Shown: piece after piece, positions 8,123-60,606 of the stretch
Position numbering within the stretch: position 1 is the stretch's first letter
Layout: each line of letters opens with the position of its first letter
Assembly (NCBI RefSeq): GCF_000337835.1
Contig: NZ_AOLM01000028.1
Coordinates: 124,001-188,000, forward strand
Reading direction: 5' to 3'
Origin: Haloferax sulfurifontis ATCC BAA-897
GTDB lineage: Archaea > Halobacteriota > Halobacteria > Halobacteriales > Haloferacaceae
DNA length: 64,000 bases
Position numbers and translations under genes: made by a program
Notes under the pieces: generated by a model
Databases searched by the model: none
Told to the model about the DNA's origin: nothing
What the model saw: only the letters and a program-made list of their open reading frames with translations

Positions 8123-9273
8123 TGGCAACCAGCATCCACCTCGACACCGTCAGAAAGGAGTTTCGCACCCTCGGAAACACGCACGTCGCCGTCGACGACC
8201 TCAGCCTCGACATCCCCGAAGGCTCGTTCACGACTTTCGTCGGCCCCTCCGGCTGCGGGAAGACGACGACCCTGCGCATGTTGGCCGGGCTTGAGACGCC
8301 CACCTCGGGCACCGTCTCGTTCGGCGACGAGGACGTGACCGACCTCCCGCCGCAGGAGCGCAACGTCTCGATGGTGTTCCAGTCCATCGCGCTCTACCCG
8401 CACATGTCCGTCCGCGAGAACATCGGCTACGGCCTGAAGATTCACGGCGTCCCGAAGGCCGAGCGCGACGAGCGCATCGACGAGGCCGCCGCAGTCCTCC
8501 AAATCGAAGCGCAGTTGGAGAAGATGCCCGCCGAGCTCTCCGGCGGCCAACAACAGCGCGTCGCCCTCGGCGGCGCGTTCGTGCAGGACCCCGACGTACT
8601 GCTTCTGGACGAGCCGATGTCCGACCTCGACGCGAAGCTCAAGTCCGACCTCCGCGTCGAGATTCAGCGACTCCACCAGGAACTCGACACGACCGTCGTC
8701 TACGTCACCCACGACCAGACCGAGGCGATGACGATGAGCGACCAAGTGGTCCTCCTCCGCGACGGCGAACTCGCGCAGGTCGACCCGCCGAAACGGCTGT
8801 TCGACTACCCGAACTCGGAGTACGTCGCGCAGTTCATCGGCATGCCCTCGACCAACGTCGTCGACTGCGCGGTCGAGGCCGGAGACGGCGGAACTGCGCT
8901 CGTCGGCCCCGGGTTCGAGCTTTCGCTTCCGGCCGGCGTCGACGTCCCGGCCGCCGGTCGCGTCAGGCTCGGCATCCGGCCGCAGTACCTCGACGTGGGC
9001 TCCGAGGGGGCGTGTCGGCTCTCGGTCGACGTGGAGGTCGTCGAGACCCTCGGGACCGAGTCCGTGGTCCACGGCCGCCTCGAAGACGGCACCCCCTTCG
9101 ACGTGGTGAGCGACGCCGTCGACGACGCGGTCGCCGGCGACCGACTCGACGTGTCGTTCGACCTCGCCGACGCGTTCGTCTTCGGCGAGGACGGCGCGAC
9201 GGTACTCTTCGGCTCCGAGCGCGCCGGCGAGCGTTCGTCGTCGCCGGCGGGGACGGGGGGCGTCACTCCATGA
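8122..9273 (+). CDS. ABC transporter ATP-binding protein, MalK/UgpC type
   Basis: A 383-residue ATPase with an N-terminal nucleotide-binding domain and a C-terminal TOBE/OB domain (about 285-360). Walker A is GPSGCGKTT (41-49), the Q-loop Gln is near 87, the signature LSGGQ is at 139-143, Walker B is VLLLDEP (159-165) and the H-loop is VTHDQ. The segment after the signature reads QRVALGGAFVQDP where relatives have QRVALARALVRDP, so the usual Arg of ARA is lost. ATG 8122 overlaps the previous stop, and the gene overlaps the CoA-transferase start by 4 nt. Confidence 0.93.
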   Translation: MATSIHLDTVRKEFRTLGNTHVAVDDLSLDIPEGSFTTFVGPSGCGKTTTLRMLAGLETPTSGTVSFGDEDVTDLPPQERNVSMVFQSIALYPHMSVRENIGYGLKIHGVPKAERDERIDEAAAVLQIEAQLEKMPAELSGGQQQRVALGGAFVQDPDVLLLDEPMSDLDAKLKSDLRVEIQRLHQELDTTVVYVTHDQTEAMTMSDQVVLLRDGELAQVDPPKRLFDYPNSEYVAQFIGMPSTNVVDCAVEAGDGGTALVGPGFELSLPAGVDVPAAGRVRLGIRPQYLDVGSEGACRLSVDVEVVETLGTESVVHGRLEDGTPFDVVSDAVDDAVAGDRLDVSFDLADAFVFGEDGATVLFGSERAGERSSSPAGTGGVTP

Positions 9274-26912: not shown

Positions 26913-27792
26913 TCGTCATCGGATTGCGCGCGCTGGTATAACCCCCGCGGTACTCTCGTGGTGCCACTTCCGCGACCGTAGTTCGTCCGGCACTCTGCGC
27001 GCCCTCCAACGACATCATTCTGATATATTTTATATAGTATTGTATACCTAATTCGTTCTACGAACCATCGACTGACGTTCCATACACGCGAACCGGGGCG
27101 CTAACGCTTCGTGATATCTTGGGGAATAAGCCGTCTCACGGCCGAATATCGGACGATTCTGTCTGATCGGGACGCTCTCGACCGCGACAGAGTGCCTATC
27201 ACTGTCACCGACGAGCGACACGACTCTTGACAGACGAGAGCTCAGAAATCCGGTGAGAGAGTGATTCTACCTGTGTTTTTCGTATCTAGCGTATCTTTTG
27301 ATGGAGATAACTCTGCTCAGATATTATTGCTTTAAACACACAATACTAATCTAACAGTTCAGATACTAATCTGTCGGTGGACCGACCACGTCGGACCGGA
27401 CCGCCGCTTCGTCCGCGGACGCGCCATCGATGCTGTTGGCTTCGACCGCCGTGACGTCGTCGCCACCCTCGACCGCCCTCCGTTCGAGACTCGAAAGTCA
27501 CTGAATTACAGATGAATCTGTGTAATATCGCACATCTGTGTGGGTAGATACTGGTATTGTTTCTGTTTTGGTAGTAGATTCCAGCTCCGGTTCTGGAAGT
27601 CTCACTTCGATCGTCGAACACGCGGCGTGATGGACCTTCGCGGGCGATTAACCTGGCCGGTCGACGACGCGTTCGAACCGAACGGAGGCTCTATTCAGGC
27701 CCGAGAAAAGAGACGTCCGGGCGTGTCGAGCATCCCCGCAGTGTCGCCGCGCCGTCGAAACGCGGCCCCGAGGGGGAGCTGTTCGAAGCCGA
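26913..27792. other. AT-richer region without a recognised gene
   Basis: 880 bases. AT-rich at 27015-27060 and 27280-27360. It contains a direct repeat ATACTAATCT (27346-27355 and again about 20 bp on), a perfect palindrome GTCGGTGGACCGAC near 27375, and the 22-bp palindromic site at 27505-27526. Short open frames are present, but none shows a family motif. It lies between a membrane-protein gene and a chimeric pseudogene and is probably eroded coding DNA plus regulatory remnants. Confidence 0.45.
27505..27526. promoter_or_regulatory. Palindromic site ATTACAG-N8-GTGTAAT
   Basis: ATTACAG (27505-27511), an 8-bp spacer, then GTGTAAT (27520-27526). The overall length of 22 bp and outer arms ATTACA/TGTAAT equal those of the sites at 40581-40602 and 40670-40691. 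No intact gene begins close by, so it may be an orphan operator left in a decayed region. Confidence 0.45.
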
Positions 27793-37118: not shown

Positions 37119-38759
37119 ATGCAAGAGAAGATACCCGAGTCGTACCTACCAGACGTGGGACCGAACCTCGTTCACGCGCTACCGGAGCTCCACTACCCGG
37201 AGCACGTCAACGTAGTTACCGAACTGGTCGACCGTCACGTTTCGGAGGGTCGAGGGGACAACGTCGCCATCCGGTTCGAAGACGAGGAGATGACGTACGC
37301 CGAACTGCAACGACAGGTCAACCGCCTCGGGAACGGCCTCGTGAATCTGGGCGTCGAGCCCGGTGACCGCGTGGTCGTTCGGTTCACGAACCGCCCCGAG
37401 GCAATCGTCTCCTGTCTCGCCGCCCAGAAGATCGGTGCGGTGGCGCTCCCCTCGATGAAACTGCTCCGCGCGGCCGAGCTCGTCCACATCATCAACAACG
37501 CCGAGGCCTCGACGGTCGTCGTCTACGACGCGCTTCTCGACGAAATCGACGAGGCGCTCCCGCGGACCGACACGGTCGAGAACGTCGTCGTCGTCGAGCG
37601 AAACGGCGTCGAACACGACCACACGGACTACGACGAGCTGACTGCCGGAACCGACGACGACCTCGACGCCCACCAGACGACCCGCGACGACCTCGCGCTC
37701 ATGCTCTACACCTCCGGGACGACGGGCGAGCCCAAGGGGGCGACACACACGCACAGACAGGTGCTGGCGACCGCGGACAGCTACGCCCGGTACTGTCTCA
37801 ACCCCACCGAAGACGACGTGTTCGGCGGGAATCCGCCGCTCCCCTTCGCCTACGGCTACGGCGACTTGGTGACGATGCCGCTCCGGTTCGGCGCGACCAC
37901 GAGCCTCGTCGAGAACGCGTCTCCCGGCGATCTGCTTCAGGCCGTCGAAGACCACGGAATCACGATTATCTGCTCGATACCGACCGCGTACAACCAGATT
38001 CTTCAGAAGTACCCCGACGGTCCCGAGGAGTACGACACCTCGTCGCTCCGGATGGCAATCAGCGCCGGCGAACCCCTGACGCCGAGCACGTTCAACAAGT
38101 TCAAAGACAGCTACGGCGTGGAGATTTACGACGGTATCGGCACCACGGAGATGCTCCACATCTTCGTGAGCCACCGGGAGGGCCAGGACATCGACCCCGG
38201 AGCGACGGGCTACCCGGTCCCCGGCTACGAGTGTAAGGTCATCGACCCCGACACCGGCGAGGAGCTTCCGCGCGGCGAGGCGGGTCTGCTCGCGGTTCGC
38301 GGGCCGACCGGCATCTCGTACTGGAACCGCCCGGAGAAACAGGAGAACGCGCTCGTCGACGGCTGGAGCCTCCCCGGCGACATCTACATCCACCGCGAGG
38401 ACGGCCGCCTCGAATACAAGGCCCGAGAGGACGACCTCATCATCTCCAGCGGCTACAACATCCCCGGCCCGGAAGTCGAGGCAGTGCTACAAGAGCTCGA
38501 CGAGGTGTCCGAGGTCGCCGTCGTCGGCGCGCCCGACGAGGAACGCGGCCAGGTGGTCAAGGCCTTCGTCATCCTCGCAGACGGATTCGACGCGAGCGAC
38601 GAGCTGACCGAGTCGCTCCAGAACCACGTCAAGAACACGCTCGCGCCGTACAAGTATCCGCGTCGCGTCGAGTACGTCGACGAGCTTCCGCGGACCGAGA
38701 CCGGTAAGATTCAGCGCGTGAAGCTCCGGGAACGCGAGCGCCAGCGGCAGGAAGCCTGA
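37119..38759 (+). CDS. Benzoate/2-aminobenzoate-type CoA ligase (AMP-forming)
   Basis: A 546-residue adenylate-forming ligase: acid + ATP + CoA to acyl-CoA. The P-loop is LMLYTSGTTGEPKGATHTH (about 196-214), the A5 motif YDGIGTTEMLHIF (the TEMLHIF form is typical of benzoate-CoA ligases), A7 DGWSLPGDIY, and the catalytic Lys530 is in RTETGKIQR. A substrate-pocket segment, GGNPPLPFAYGYGD, resembles aryl-CoA ligases such as benzoate, hydroxybenzoate or aminobenzoate ligase. Exact substrate unknown. An AT-rich promoter (about 37078-37105) precedes ATG 37119. Confidence 0.88.
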   Translation: MQEKIPESYLPDVGPNLVHALPELHYPEHVNVVTELVDRHVSEGRGDNVAIRFEDEEMTYAELQRQVNRLGNGLVNLGVEPGDRVVVRFTNRPEAIVSCLAAQKIGAVALPSMKLLRAAELVHIINNAEASTVVVYDALLDEIDEALPRTDTVENVVVVERNGVEHDHTDYDELTAGTDDDLDAHQTTRDDLALMLYTSGTTGEPKGATHTHRQVLATADSYARYCLNPTEDDVFGGNPPLPFAYGYGDLVTMPLRFGATTSLVENASPGDLLQAVEDHGITIICSIPTAYNQILQKYPDGPEEYDTSSLRMAISAGEPLTPSTFNKFKDSYGVEIYDGIGTTEMLHIFVSHREGQDIDPGATGYPVPGYECKVIDPDTGEELPRGEAGLLAVRGPTGISYWNRPEKQENALVDGWSLPGDIYIHREDGRLEYKAREDDLIISSGYNIPGPEVEAVLQELDEVSEVAVVGAPDEERGQVVKAFVILADGFDASDELTESLQNHVKNTLAPYKYPRRVEYVDELPRTETGKIQRVKLRERERQRQEA

Positions 38760-38837: not shown

Positions 38838-39617
38838 CTACCGCCGGACGTAGCCGCCGTCGACGTGAACCGTCTCGCCGGTGATCCAGCTCGCGGCGTC
38901 GCTGGCGAGGAACACCACCGCGTTGGCGACCTCTTGGGGGCGGCCGACCCGTTCGAGCGCGTACGACTGTCCCAGTTTCTCGCGGTACTTCTCGACGAAC
39001 GCCTTGGTGGACGGCGTCTCGACGGTGCCCGGACAGACGCAGTTGACGCGGACGCCGGACCCGCCGACCTCCTTGGACATCGTCTTCGTAAACGAGCGGT
39101 TCGCGGCCTTCGCCGCGCCGTACACCGCCAGTCCGGGGTCGTTCCCCCGGTAGGACGAACTCGCGTAGTTGACGACGACGCCGTCGCCGCGCTCGACCAT
39201 CCCGGGGAGCGCCGCGTGCGTGCAGTTGAGCGTCCCGTACAGCGAGACGCCGAGCTTCTCGTCCCAGTCGGCCGGCTCCGAGTCGAGGAACTTCTCGACG
39301 CCCGCCACCCCGGCGTTGTTGACGAGGACGTCGAGCGAGCCGAACTCCTCGACGGTCGCTTCGACCATCGCCACCGCCGCGTCGTACTCCGAGACGTCGG
39401 TTTCGAGGCCGACCGCGCGGACGCCGTGCGCGTCCGCGACCCGCTCCGCGACCGCCTCCGCGCCCGCGCCGTCGATGTCGGCGACGACGACGTTCGCTCC
39501 GAGGGCGGCGAAGGCCTCGGCGACGGCCTCGCCGATGCCCTGTGCGGCGCCGGTCACGCAGGCGGTTCGCCCCTCGAAGTCGAAGCTGTCTCTGATGTCC
39601 GGCGAGTCGGTCGTCAC
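38838..39617 (-). CDS. Short-chain dehydrogenase/reductase (classical SDR)
   Basis: A 259-residue NAD(P)-dependent oxidoreductase. Cofactor motif TGAAQGIG is at about 21-28, VADIDG (Asp suggests an NAD preference), NNAGVAG, catalytic Ser-Tyr-Lys in YASSSYRGN and [11 protein letters not shown], and the closing [13 protein letters not shown]. It follows the enoyl-CoA hydratase gene by 4 nt on the same strand. It may oxidise the 3-hydroxyacyl-CoA product of the hydratase, the step otherwise done by PaaH (inference). Confidence 0.92.
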
Positions 39618-39621
39618 GGCT

Positions 39622-40443
39622 TTACTTCCCCTCGAATTCCGGTTGCTCGTCGCTTCCGAAGGCGTCGATCGCCTTCGCGTAGTCGTCGGACTGCGCGAGA
39701 GCGGGCCACGCGTGGCTGGCGTACTCGATGCCGGCGTCGTAGCCGACGTTGCGCGTGATGTTGACCGCCTGTTTGATAGAGCGGACCGCGAGCGGCGGTT
39801 TGCTCGCGAGCTTCGACACCAGCTCGTCGACGCGTTCGTCGAGTTCGTCGGTGTCGGCGACGACGTCCGTCAGGATACCGCTCTCGGCGGCTTCGGCGGC
39901 GCTGAGCTGATCGCCGGTCATCGTAATCTCCTTGGCTCGGCTGGCACCGACCATCGTGGTCAGCCGTTGCGCCGCGGCACCGCCGGGGAGGACGCCGAAG
40001 TTCACTTCGGGCTGGCCGAACGAGGCGGCCTCGACGGCGAACCGGAAGTCCGACGACATCACGATTTCGAACCCGCCGCCGAGACAGAGCCCGTCGACGG
40101 CGGCGACGACGGGCGCATCGTACTCTTCGAAGGCCGCACACATCTCACAGAAGAGGTCGGGGACGCGTTTTTTCTGGTGGTACGTCGAGAAGTCGCTCAT
40201 CTCGCCGACGTCTAACCCCGAACAGAACGCCTTGTCGCCCGCGGAATCCACGATGACGGCCCTGACTGCGATGCCATCGGCCTCGTCGTCCAGCGCCTGG
40301 AAGGCGTCGAAGGCGTCGATGAGGTCGTGTTGCATCTGGATGTTAATCGCGTTCATCGCCTTCGGGCGGTCGAGCGTGATACGCCCCAGTCCGGTCTCCT
40401 CGTCGAACGACCAGTCGATGGTCTCGAAGTCGGTGTCTGACAT
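39622..40443 (-). CDS. Enoyl-CoA hydratase/isomerase (crotonase family)
   Basis: A 273-residue crotonase-fold enzyme. The oxyanion hole is formed by [12 protein letters not shown] and [15 protein letters not shown]; the acidic pair shows Glu in [14 protein letters not shown], while the other Glu position is not certain. It may act as PaaF/PaaG-like hydratase or isomerase in aromatic catabolism. The promoter has TATTAATA about 25-30 nt upstream of ATG 40443, followed further upstream by four palindromic sites, making this operon the best candidate for control by those operators. Confidence 0.92.
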
Positions 40444-40465: not shown

Positions 40466-40475
40466 CTATTAATAC
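40466..40475 (-). promoter_or_regulatory. TATA box of the enoyl-CoA hydratase-SDR operon
   Basis: On the minus strand the sequence reads GTATTAATAG about 25-30 nt before the ATG at 40443, which fits a leaderless transcript. Confidence 0.55.
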
Positions 40476-40510
40476 TTAACGACGCGCACCCCCGCGTTCA
40501 CAGCCGGCCT

Positions 40511-40528
40511 GTATACAGAACCGTATAC
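40511..40528. promoter_or_regulatory. GTATAC-N6-GTATAC palindromic site, copy 1
   Basis: GTATAC-AGAACC-GTATAC, 36 bp upstream of the hydratase TATA box. Each GTATAC is a palindrome, so the element offers two half-sites spaced 12 bp centre to centre, about one helical turn. Preceded by CT as in copy 2. Confidence 0.65.
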
Positions 40529-40580: not shown

Positions 40581-40602
40581 ATTACAGATATACGACTGTA
40601 AT
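40581..40602. promoter_or_regulatory. ATTACAG-N8-CTGTAAT palindromic site, copy 1
   Basis: A perfect 7-bp inverted repeat with an 8-bp spacer (ATATACGA). The same 22-bp architecture recurs at 40670-40691 and 27505-27526. Confidence 0.65.
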
Positions 40603-40669
40603 GTCTTCTCGTAGAGACCGTCACCGAGTTCGACCGAATCGGCTTCGGACCGAACCGGGTACACCACCA

Positions 40670-40691
40670 ATTACAGTCATATGGTTGTAAC
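40670..40691. promoter_or_regulatory. ATTACAG-N8-TTGTAAC palindromic site, copy 2
   Basis: ATTACAG, spacer TCATATGG, TTGTAAC. The inner TTACA/TGTAA arms match copy 1 at the same spacing. Centre-to-centre distance to copy 1 is 89 bp. Confidence 0.6.
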
Positions 40692-40743: not shown

Positions 40744-40761
40744 GTATACAGGTACGTATAC
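40744..40761. promoter_or_regulatory. GTATAC-N6-GTATAC palindromic site, copy 2
   Basis: GTATAC-AGGTAC-GTATAC. Flanking CT before and the AG at the spacer start match copy 1. It lies 233 bp from copy 1 in the same intergenic region. Confidence 0.65.
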
Positions 40762-40881: not shown

Positions 40882-41166
40882 TCAGGGGCCGCAGTTCGAC
40901 CGAAGCTTCAGGTCCGACCGCGCTTTTGCGACGCAGGTCAGGACGTAGCCTTCCTCTTTTTCGGACTCCGAGAGGAACATCGCCTCCACTTGGTCGACCT
41001 CGCCCTCGACGACCCGGAGGGCCGAACAGACGCCGCAGACGCCCATTCGGCACTGGTACGGGAGGTCGACTCCGACCTCTTCGGCGGCCTCCAACACCGG
41101 CCGGTCGTCGGGAACCTGGATGGTGCGCCCTTCGTCGACGAACTCGACTTCGTAGTATTCGACCAT
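40882..41166 (-). CDS. Plant-type [2Fe-2S] ferredoxin
   Basis: A 94-residue electron carrier. The cluster Cys ligands are in YQCRMGVCGVCSAL (C-x4-C-x2-C) and the fourth in YVLTCVAKA. The Cys-x4-Cys-x2-Cys spacing matches the ferredoxin domain of PaaE-like reductases. No PaaE flavin reductase is in the window, so this protein may feed electrons to the PaaABC oxygenase from another reductase (inference). Its start lies 1 nt after the acetyltransferase stop on the same strand. Confidence 0.93.
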   Translation of the reverse strand: MVEYYEVEFVDEGRTIQVPDDRPVLEAAEEVGVDLPYQCRMGVCGVCSALRVVEGEVDQVEAMFLSESEKEEGYVLTCVAKARSDLKLRSNCGP

Positions 41167-41167
41167 G

Positions 41168-41653
41168 TTAGAGGCGTTCTTCGTAGACGAGTTCGACGGG
41201 GTCCAGCCCGTGGGACTCCAGCATCTTCGCGGCGGTGTCGTCGTCCGCTAACACGTCGATTCGATAGTAGTCGACCGCCCGCGGCTCTTCTTTGAACCAC
41301 ACGGCCGCCGCGTCGAGTAACTCGCCGGCGACGCCTGCGCCGCGGTGTTCCTCGCGCACGAAGAGGCCGTGGACGTATCCGTGGTTCGCGAGTCGAAAAA
41401 TCGGATGGTCGCCCATCACGCGGGCTTCGAGGACGCCGACGGGGTCGTCCTCGCCGTCGACCTCGGCCAAGAGCACGGTGCCGTACTTCGAATCGACGAG
41501 CTGGTTCTCGAAGTAGCGGAGCCAGCGTTCGTCGGCCTGGTCGCTGTGGCCGTATCGGTCGTCGAACCGCGAGAGGTGGTCCGTGAACCCGTGCCAGAGC
41601 TCCAGTATGTCGCTTCCATCTTCGTTTTCAGCGTGACGTGTCTGAATACCCAT
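41168..41653 (-). CDS. GNAT-family N-acetyltransferase
   Basis: A 161-residue acetyl-CoA-dependent transferase. The acetyl-CoA loop is seen in VHGLFVREEHRGAGVAGELL (motif A, with R/Q-x-x-G-x-A/G written as HRGAGV). The substrate is unknown. It is divergent from paaA and co-directional with the ferredoxin gene. There is an AT-rich promoter region between it and paaA. Confidence 0.9.
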   Translation of the reverse strand: MGIQTRHAENEDGSDILELWHGFTDHLSRFDDRYGHSDQADERWLRYFENQLVDSKYGTVLLAEVDGEDDPVGVLEARVMGDHPIFRLANHGYVHGLFVREEHRGAGVAGELLDAAAVWFKEEPRAVDYYRIDVLADDDTAAKMLESHGLDPVELVYEERL

Positions 41654-41786: not shown

Positions 41787-42728
41787 ATGAGTTCGATTAG
41801 ACAAGCCATGCCAACGGAAAAACAATTTAAGAACCAGCTACAGAACGGTCGGATGATCGAAGACGAGTCGGAGATGACCGAGGGGTACAAGAAGGCGTTG
41901 AAGGCGACCCTCAAGGTCTCGGCGGACACCGAACTCATGAGTGCGCCCGCGTACTACGAGATGTCGATGAACGCGCCGACGCTCGACTCGCGTGCGTCGT
42001 GTATCAGCGTCATCCAAGACGAACTCGGCCACGGTCACATCGCCTACCGACTGCTCGAAGACCTCGGCGAGGACCGCGAAGAGCTCATCTACGAGCGCGA
42101 GCCGCACGAGTTCCGCAACACCTACGGCTTCGACCAGCACCTCGAGACGTTCGCGGAACTCGTCTGCGGGCACGGTCTCTTCGACCGCGCCGGGATGGTG
42201 CTCCTGAGCGACATCGAGGCGAACACCTCGTACGCCCCGTGGAAACGCGCGCTCCGGAAGGTCGGAAAGGAAGAGCAGTTCCACCTCCGCCACGGCGAAA
42301 CGTGGATGCGCCGGCTGGTCAACAACTCCGAGAAGACGAAACAGCGCGTGCAGGACGCGGTCGACTGGATGTTCCCGATGGGAATCGAGTGGTTCGGCAT
42401 GCCGGACGGCAAGAAGCACAACACCGACCAACTCGACTACCGCATCAAGGGGAAGACCAACGACGAACTCCGACAGGAGTGGATGAGCCACACCGTTCCC
42501 CTCGCGAACGAACTGGACCTCGACGTGCCCGCGCACTTCGACGACGAGGCCGAGGAGTACGTCCTCGAATACGACATGCCGGTCGCGTTCGACGCCGACA
42601 ACAAGGAGTGGCGCTTCGACGAGCCGATCGGCTGGGACGACGTCCTCGACCGATGGCGCTCGCGCGGCCCCGCCAACGAGAAGTACGTCAACATGCTCCA
42701 GTCCGGCAAGTTAGAGGTGGAAGTGTAG
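41787..42728 (+). CDS. paaA: Ring-1,2-phenylacetyl-CoA epoxidase subunit PaaA
   Basis: The catalytic di-iron subunit that epoxidises the ring of phenylacetyl-CoA with O2. Ferritin-like ligand motifs are visible: QDELGHGHIAYRLLED with E-x-x-H, and KEEQFHLRHGETWM with a second E-x-x-H. Further conserved blocks are YGFDQHLETFAELVCGHG and WFGMPDGKKHNTDQLDYRIK. A TATA-like TTCATAAC at 41759-41766 suggests a leaderless start at ATG 41787 (313 residues); ATG 41808 (306 residues) gives the length closest to bacterial PaaA. It heads paaA-D-B-C. Confidence 0.95.
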   Translation: MSSIRQAMPTEKQFKNQLQNGRMIEDESEMTEGYKKALKATLKVSADTELMSAPAYYEMSMNAPTLDSRASCISVIQDELGHGHIAYRLLEDLGEDREELIYEREPHEFRNTYGFDQHLETFAELVCGHGLFDRAGMVLLSDIEANTSYAPWKRALRKVGKEEQFHLRHGETWMRRLVNNSEKTKQRVQDAVDWMFPMGIEWFGMPDGKKHNTDQLDYRIKGKTNDELRQEWMSHTVPLANELDLDVPAHFDDEAEEYVLEYDMPVAFDADNKEWRFDEPIGWDDVLDRWRSRGPANEKYVNMLQSGKLEVEV

Positions 42729-43104: not shown

Positions 43105-43304
43105 AGTACCACGTATTCACCCGCAACAGATCCGGAGACGACATGATACACGCAGGAACCGTTCAGGCGGACTCGGACCGCCTCGCGCGAATCTACGCCC
43201 ACCGAACGTACGACGAGGAAGACTGGGACTTCATGGGCGTCGTCCGCGAGGAGGACCTGCTCGAAGTCGACGAAGAACCCATCAGCAGTCGGAGGGTCGC
43301 ATGA
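43101..43304 (+). CDS. paaB: Phenylacetyl-CoA epoxidase subunit PaaB
   Basis: A 67-residue small subunit that bridges PaaA-PaaC dimers in the complex. It has YHVFTRNRSGDDMIHAGTVQ and YAHRTYDEEDWDFMGVVRE, which correspond to the PaaB fold, and is shorter than E. coli PaaB (95 residues). ATG 43101 overlaps the paaD stop, and the end overlaps paaC. Confidence 0.9.
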   Translation: MKYHVFTRNRSGDDMIHAGTVQADSDRLARIYAHRTYDEEDWDFMGVVREEDLLEVDEEPISSRRVA

Positions 43305-44080
43305 GTGCAGACGCCGAGAGCCGCTGGCCCGAGGTCGCCCGCGACTACGTGCAGGCCATCGCCGACACGAAGTTGCTCCTCGGCCAGCGCTACGGGGAGT
43401 GGATGCTGAAGGGTCCGAACCTCGAAGACGACATCTCCGGCGCGTCCAACGGTCAGGACGAAATCGGCCAGGTCCGCCAACTGTTCCGCCTGCTCGAAAA
43501 GCAGGGTGTCGACCGCGACTGGCTCGAAACCGACCGCGAGCCGGCGGAGTACGCGAACGCGCAACCACTGGACGAGGAAGCCGAGGCGTGGCCGACGTTC
43601 ATGGTTCAGGTGGCCCTCTCCGACCGGGCCGCGTGGCTCCTGCTCGACGCCATCCGACACGAGGACTTCACCGGCATGGTCCAGAAGATGGGCGAAGACG
43701 AGTACTTCCATCTCGAACACCACGACGCTCGCCTCGAGACGCTGGCGGTCGACCAGCCCGAGGCGGTCGAAGCCGCTCTCGAACGCTACTTCCCGGGCAT
43801 CCTCGCGTTCATCGGTCCCGCGACCCACGGCGCGGGCGCGGACCCGCTCGTCGAGGCGGGCTTCACCGACCGCGCGGTCGCCGAGATTCGCGGCGCGTTC
43901 CGCGAGCACTACGTGGACCTGTTCGCGGGGACCGACGTCGCCGTCCCCGCGCTGACCGACGACGTGCCGGACCCCGACGAGTGGGACGAGAAACGACGCC
44001 GGAGCGGCGACGGTCACATCGACCAGCGCGTCGCCGACCAACTGCAGGGCGTCACGAACAGGGAGTACGTCATCGAATGA
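43301..44080 (+). CDS. paaC: Phenylacetyl-CoA epoxidase structural subunit PaaC
   Basis: A 259-residue ferritin-like partner of PaaA. It contains IADTKLLLGQRYGEWMLKGP and QKMGEDEYFHLEHHDARLET with GEDEYFH in the ferritin position, but lacks the full di-iron set, as in bacterial PaaC. Length fits the family (about 250). It overlaps paaB and the zinc-ribbon gene by ATGA on both sides. Confidence 0.94.
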   Translation: MSADAESRWPEVARDYVQAIADTKLLLGQRYGEWMLKGPNLEDDISGASNGQDEIGQVRQLFRLLEKQGVDRDWLETDREPAEYANAQPLDEEAEAWPTFMVQVALSDRAAWLLLDAIRHEDFTGMVQKMGEDEYFHLEHHDARLETLAVDQPEAVEAALERYFPGILAFIGPATHGAGADPLVEAGFTDRAVAEIRGAFREHYVDLFAGTDVAVPALTDDVPDPDEWDEKRRRSGDGHIDQRVADQLQGVTNREYVIE

Positions 44081-50519: not shown

Positions 50520-50860
50520 CCGACACACTCCCCTTCTCTGATTTCCAGCACCATTGGTGACACGCTCGTACTGCTGGTGCATAAAGTCATCGTGCCGATA
50601 CCGGCGGCTATCCGGTCCGAGGGCGTAGAATACTTCACATGTATACTCGACAGTATACCGTCAATCGTACACGATTATTCGGGATATGAAAACGCGTCGA
50701 ACACCGGTTCGGCGGAGCGATACCCGCCGAACCGCACGGTCGGGTTCGCATCGAACCCCCACTGCGGTCGGCACGTCACGCCGGTCCGTCTACGGTATTG
50801 TCTGAAAACCGGTGAGCTGTCGACTGCGTGGCCCCGCCGGGGTGGCGGTCGCGGTGGCGG
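50520..50860. other. Divergent-type upstream region of the ubiD operon
   Basis: 341 bases between the end of the PaaY-like gene and the ubiD operon start, containing the GTATAC palindrome at 50641-50658 and a TATA-like GTATTCTAC (minus strand, about 50624-50632). No gene seen. Confidence 0.5.
50641..50658. promoter_or_regulatory. GTATAC-N6-GTATAC palindromic site, copy 3
   Basis: GTATAC-TCGACA-GTATAC, the same 18-bp design as the two sites at 40.5-40.8 kb. It lies just upstream of the putative TATA box of the minus-strand ubiD operon, 122 bp before ATG 50519. Confidence 0.65.
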
Positions 50861-59934: not shown

Positions 59935-60456
59935 TCAGTCGTCGGCGTCCTCTTTGAGATGGTCGAACAGTTGCGGCTCGGTCCCGAACTTCAGCACGTT
60001 GGTCATCACCGAACTGCGGACGTTGTGCACCATCTTCCCGTGGTCCTTGTAGAAGTCGTGGAGCCAGCGGGACTGCACCTCTCGACTCGGGAACATCATG
60101 ACCGCCTTCCACTGGTACTCGCCGTCGGAGAGGAAATAAAAGAGCGTGTACTGACTGTCGCGGAGGAACTCCATCGTCTCCCGCCAATGGTCCGCGAAGT
60201 TCTCCGGGTTGAACTTGAACTCCATCAGCGAGAACGTGAAGTAGTCTTCGTTCGGGATGATGGCCTCCCGAAACACGCCCGCGCTCCGCATGTCGCGAAT
60301 CGATTTGCTGACCGTCACGTGCGAGACGTCGATGTCGTACTCCTCTTTGAGCACGGTCGTCAGCTCCCGAGCGGAGAGCTGTGGGTCGCGGCCGAGTTCG
60401 CGGAGAATGATGACATCGCGGTCTTTGAATTCCCAGTCGGGTCGTTTGTTGGTCAT
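59935..60456 (-). CDS. Lrp/AsnC-like winged-helix transcriptional regulator
   Basis: A 173-residue protein. Residues about 8-65 form the HTH (DVIILRELGRDPQLSARELT, then DVSHVTVSKSIRDMRSAGV). Residues about 75-170 are an alpha/beta domain without the clear RAM motif, with FSLMEFKFNPENFADHWRET. ATG 60456 gives MTNKRPDWEFKDRDVIILRE; the upstream extension is Arg-rich and rejected. It converges with gentisate dioxygenase and lies just downstream of the second Liv operon, so it may control either (inference). Confidence 0.87.
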   Translation of the reverse strand: MTNKRPDWEFKDRDVIILRELGRDPQLSARELTTVLKEEYDIDVSHVTVSKSIRDMRSAGVFREAIIPNEDYFTFSLMEFKFNPENFADHWRETMEFLRDSQYTLFYFLSDGEYQWKAVMMFPSREVQSRWLHDFYKDHGKMVHNVRSSVMTNVLKFGTEPQLFDHLKEDADD

Positions 60457-60606
60457 ATCGACTCGATTTTCGGCGGCGAGGTATGATAGGTTTTCGGAGC
60501 CGTCTGCGGTTTGTGTCCCGCCGAGGAGACCCGTCCCGATGCGAAAGCCGCACCGAGTCCAGTCTCGCATCGACACGGTCGGTCGGCCCAACGCGAGCCG
60601 AACGCG

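Follow-up and report, generated by a model that had tools for sequence, protein, structure and literature searches.

Organization of the region between the hydratase and ferredoxin genes

In Haloferax sulfurifontis ATCC BAA-897, the region between a hydratase gene and a ferredoxin gene contains two families of palindromic sites, called here A (GTATAC-N6/7-GTATAC) and B (TTACA-N4-TA-N4-TGTAA), close to genes for a ligase and a paa-like oxygenase. The features are listed below by their positions in the window, i.e. the whole stretch of 64,000 nucleotides that was analysed; palindromic sites are given without a strand. Genes outside the window were called with a simple script.

37119-38759, plus strand: benzoate-CoA ligase family protein (TIGR02262, above the curated cut-off)
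38838-39617, minus strand: SDR dehydrogenase (PF13561), the next gene after the hydratase
39622-40443, minus strand: enoyl-CoA hydratase/isomerase (PF00378), downstream of the module in Haloferax and Halobellus
40466-40480, minus strand: TATA-like stretch, GTTAAGTATTAATAG on the minus strand, about 30 bp before the ATG of the hydratase, read from the sequence
40511-40528: A1 site, GTATACAGAACCGTATAC, with the same sequence in Haloferax denitrificans
40581-40602: B1 site, ATTACAGATATACGACTGTAAT, TTACA-N4-TA-N4-TGTAA core at 40582-40601
40670-40691: B2 site, ATTACAGTCATATGGTTGTAAC, core at 40671-40690
40744-40761: A2 site, GTATACAGGTACGTATAC
40882-41166, minus strand: 2Fe-2S ferredoxin (PF00111), whose 3' end adjoins the module in the loci compared
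41168-41653, minus strand: GNAT acetyltransferase (PF00583), conserved together with the ferredoxin
41796-42728, plus strand: PaaA-like oxygenase subunit (PF05138)
43301-44080, plus strand: PaaC-like oxygenase subunit (PF05138)
50641-50658: another A site, GTATACTCGACAGTATAC, 59 bp ahead of a UbiD operon, conserved in H. denitrificans
27505-27526: rejected third B site, ATTACAGATGAATCTGTGTAAT, with one arm mismatch and AA in place of the central TA

The preliminary description of this DNA had claimed two 22-bp palindromes lying between two GTATAC-N6-GTATAC sites in an A-B-B-A order. Both palindromes were present, and the order was borne out, with centre-to-centre distances of A-72-B-89-B-72-A bp around a symmetry point at 40636. 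The position of the TATA-like stretch would fit a near-leaderless start of the hydratase. No tRNA or known RNA was detected in the window, where no Rfam match rose above a family threshold. The oxygenase subunits met the Pfam PaaA_PaaC model but did not reach the NCBIfam equivalog cut-offs for PaaA, PaaC and PaaD; with such an oxygenase and a ligase of the benzoate-CoA ligase family, the substrate of the cluster is uncertain.

Enrichment and refinement of the B motif

A search of the window for TTACAG-N8-CTGTAA with up to three mismatches returned nine sites versus 3.1 expected, a number that none of 100 shuffles reached. When the 3.8-Mb genome was scanned, the near-matches that recurred had a central TA in common, which gave the refined motif TTACA-N4-TA-N4-TGTAA. 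The genome-wide motif search proposed in the preliminary description resulted in clear enrichment: 13 perfect copies were found in the genome versus one for the reversed pattern, and 12 of the 13 were intergenic (between called genes). Across 78 haloarchaeal genomes the refined motif occurred 420 times versus 21 for the control. B1 was also perfect in H. denitrificans, with the differences confined to spacer positions, and over the four B sites compared between the two genomes all eight substitutions (8/8) fell at spacer, i.e. unspecified, positions. The probability of this outcome is about 0.4^8 = 0.0007, assuming an even spread of substitutions over the 20 positions. The B sites are real, and chance is excluded as their origin.

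The same comparisons removed the site at 27505-27526, which had been described as a third copy. Its right arm reads GTGTAAT instead of YTGTAAY and it does not contain the central TA of the other near-matches. The site is located inside a segment of about 350 bp (27419-27768) that H. denitrificans lacks in its otherwise colinear region, and no B site with up to two mismatches was found in that colinear region. The suggestion that an orphan copy may mark a lost catabolic operon is not supported either, given neither a motif match nor conservation.

Conservation of the module across haloarchaea

We gathered 26 haloarchaeal loci through relatives of PaaA and used as a footprint the 600 bp beside the ferredoxin stop codon. 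B was detected in 14 of these loci (0.05 expected from shuffles) and A, with a 6- or 7-bp spacer, in 20 (0.09 expected); four loci contained neither motif. About a dozen genera have kept the module next to their paa-like oxygenase cluster. The order A-B-A or A-B-B-A was seen in loci of Haloferax, Halobellus, Natrinema, Halorubrum, Halostagnicola and Halalkalicoccus, and again in Halopenitus with a weaker B. In close species pairs (alignments judged by eye) nothing in the gap stood out as conserved apart from A, B and a TATA-like stretch, and in several genera TATA-like stretches lay next to A1 or B1. Conservation at orthologous positions, the second check that had been proposed, was thus found at this locus, where the A and B sites were kept while the surrounding DNA diverged.

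Only in Haloferax and Halobellus are the hydratase and SDR genes neighbours of the module, which there lies upstream of them. In most other genera the ligase (plus strand) and the ferredoxin (minus strand) converge on the module with no hydratase at that place, so that the 3' end of the ligase gene faces it. No conserved ORF was seen in the ligase-ferredoxin convergent gap of the loci compared. Since nothing was seen between the convergent ligase and ferredoxin genes elsewhere, the module looks older than its association with hydratase and SDR, which would be its neighbours in particular lineages only. Footprinting by way of hydratase orthologs returned no sites; the conserved context is marked by the oxygenase rather than by the hydratase. 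On sequence conservation, the A and B sites appear to make up a cis-regulatory module maintained at the paa-like cluster.

Three species had A without B: Halorubrum aquaticum, Halorubrum cibi and Halobellus captivus, with few IclR genes in their genomes (1, 2 and 4, respectively). Both of these Halorubrum loci (L092 and L093, positions about 8780-8850) have TAACAC...GTGTTA palindromes between the A sites, which possibly replace B and reflect a swapped regulator.

The A sites were nearly private to the oxygenase cluster. The gap accounted for the majority, or all, of the perfect A sites found genome-wide in most genomes, and the density of GTATAC there was about 50 times that of the remaining locus sequence. 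In nine other loci an A half-site abutted a TATA box (CGTATACAGAAAACAATTATAA-like sequence) upstream of paaA, and because of this position paaA is a likely target of the A regulator.

The arrangement of A and B was not restricted to this cluster. A second A-B-A module was detected outside the window at C28:198317-198461 (A at 198317, B at 198369, A at 198444), 164 bp after an acyl-CoA dehydrogenase gene and before an SDR gene, and is conserved in H. denitrificans. Another B lies on the same contig at 200284, within a truncated-looking ORF. In Halostagnicola, A-B-A was also found in a different convergent gap (L211:1501-1686), between a gene for a PAS-like sensor and one for an acyl-CoA dehydrogenase.

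Association of B sites with IclR-family genes

Over the 78 haloarchaeal genomes, which are phylogenetically non-independent samples, the number of perfect B sites correlated with the number of IclR-family genes (rho 0.81; 0.56 after genome-size correction), and the 17 genomes without IclR genes contained two B sites altogether. The 63 IclR loci that we fetched included 20 with a perfect B and 30 with a B of at most one mismatch, and the reversed control was found in none. The H. sulfurifontis genome itself encodes 13 IclR-family proteins. Of 21 B sites in this genome, six lay within 2 kb of an IclR gene versus 1.8 expected from AT-rich random positions (P = 0.0055), a moderate signal; on contigs C8 and C28, both read completely, seven of nine IclR genes had a B (up to one mismatch) within 2.5 kb. 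Module loci without B tended to belong to genomes poorer in IclR genes (P = 0.046, 18 genomes). IclR genes are numerous yet B sites few or absent in some genomes (17 and 0, 8 and 0, 12 and 2); lineages therefore differ, and the B motif is not universal for the IclR family. On these statistical grounds, B most likely represents a class of operator that many IclR proteins of haloarchaea recognize.

C8 and C28 together hold 12 of the 13 perfect B sites and 9 of the 13 IclR genes, and are perhaps secondary replicons or catabolic islands. The idea that B is a replicon-specific element was rejected, as the share of IclR genes on the two contigs explains the share of sites well enough.

The IclR protein encoded at C8:179820 shares 80-85% identity with proteins annotated as XacR, and a perfect B lies about 100 bp past the 3' end of its gene. 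In the XacR regions of two named plasmids only weak B-like sites (one or two mismatches) were seen just past xacR. Similarly, a perfect B was found just beyond the 3' end of the best-conserved IclR ortholog (L171, L174 and L177; two Halorubrum and one Natrinema, 70-88% identity), whose neighbours are glycosidase-like and other sugar-type genes as judged by eye. This protein was rejected as a common reader of B, since it has no ortholog in the H. sulfurifontis genome.

Search for the regulators and comparison with known systems

We found no IclR gene closer than 10 kb to the cluster in 25 of the 26 loci. Nor was any one IclR ortholog common to all the B-bearing genomes examined. Among the neighbours of the 26 loci we saw no conserved regulator gene. 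The HTH protein encoded in the window at 59938-60459 (minus strand) was dismissed as a regulator of A or B, because the distribution of its orthologs does not track the presence of either motif.

Known haloarchaeal activators of catabolic genes include the IclR proteins XacR, GacR, RhcR and MscR (PMC11519228); for XacR, activation of pentose catabolism has been reported (PMC6995148). These proteins resemble the present case in that they, too, control catabolic genes of haloarchaea, and the C8:179820 protein resembles XacR. The described activators, however, are encoded alongside the genes they control (PMC11519228, PMC6995148), whereas the module described here has no IclR gene nearby. No published consensus of the B type was found in the open-access papers searched. 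Bacterial IclR operators are likewise short pseudo-palindromes upstream of catabolic genes, often paired, but TTACA-N4-TA-N4-TGTAA fits neither of the two main bacterial consensuses, GKTYCRYW3-4RYGRAMC and TGRAACAN1-2TGTTYCA (PMC8222616). The spacing within pairs differs too, being 18-22 bp in bacteria and 28-89 bp here.

For the A sites the nearest parallel is the control of bacterial phenylacetate clusters by PaaX and PaaR, where a dedicated operator is found at a ring-activating oxygenase cluster, as A seems to be. The two cases differ in that no conserved regulator gene was found near the haloarchaeal cluster. The A sequence, GTATAC-N6/7-GTATAC, is presumably unlike bacterial operators of the PaaX/PaaR type, and a literature search did not find a published GTATAC operator.

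Proposed function of the module

We propose that the B sites are probably operators of IclR-family proteins and that, together with the A sites as operators of a second, dedicated regulator, they form a cis-regulatory module for the paa-like (aromatic-acid CoA/oxygenase) cluster of haloarchaea. An IclR dimer would read the TTACA and TGTAA half-sites, which lie about one and a half turns apart, and the A sites would be read by the second regulator, dedicated to the aromatic pathway. The earlier suggestion that the B sites are operators of a dimeric regulator other than the one at the GTATAC sites is supported. In Haloferax and Halobellus the module forms the upstream region of the hydratase-SDR unit and probably acts as an activator-type element: A1 has its centre roughly 48 bp, and the B sites lie roughly 120-210 bp, before the likely TATA box of the hydratase. 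The claim that the hydratase promoter integrates two signals stands only in part: two inputs would meet at one module, but that module can be a hydratase promoter in Haloferax and Halobellus only. In the other genera the module in the convergent gap would either act at a distance on the ferredoxin and paaA promoters or drive an unannotated transcript. Our tentative suggestion, which may well prove wrong, is that haloarchaea of different orders have retained the two-regulator A-B-A arrangement in convergent gaps, where it would serve either as a distal element for the paaA and ferredoxin promoters, at a distance of about 1 kb, or as a promoter, itself regulated, of an antisense or small RNA.

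The second of these options can be considered separately as a variant of the main explanation, in which a promoter in the convergent gap, regulated through A and B, produces a small or antisense RNA that tunes the ligase or ferredoxin transcripts. The gap without a visible ORF, the TATA-like stretches adjoining A1 or B1 in several genera and the recurrence of A-B-A in the other Halostagnicola gap are consistent with such a promoter; the close species pairs, however, show no conserved transcript body, and the window has no Rfam match above threshold. We regard it as possible but rather unlikely. Somewhat more doubtful is that a factor outside the IclR family reads B at the paa-like locus and shares the half-site by coincidence. 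The absence of a nearby IclR gene and of a common IclR ortholog would be accounted for in this way, but the strong genome-wide tie of the B motif to IclR genes argues against it, as does the tendency of B-less loci towards IclR-poor genomes. It is very unlikely that A and B control the hydratase-SDR unit only, with the similar sites elsewhere being unrelated: the module does lie directly upstream of the hydratase in Haloferax and Halobellus, with a suitably placed TATA-like stretch, but as a complete account this is contradicted by the same A and B sites beside the ferredoxin in genera with no hydratase there. Finally, although most genera have the B palindromes between convergent genes and B1 can fold (-9.5 kcal/mol, z -2.8), it is hardly credible that they are RNA hairpins serving as bidirectional terminators rather than protein-binding DNA, given that no hairpin forms from B2 (z about +0.6), that the central TA, which would be the loop, and the arm sequence itself are conserved, and that B recurs beside IclR genes.

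If the B sites are IclR operators as proposed, they would offer a testable operator consensus for a family that is expanded in haloarchaea (up to 36 genes per genome), and with it a way to predict IclR regulons. The module would also be a conserved two-operator element at a place that is unexpected under promoter-centred models of archaeal regulation. The lone A site before the UbiD-family operon (50641-50658) suggests a wider aromatic regulon.
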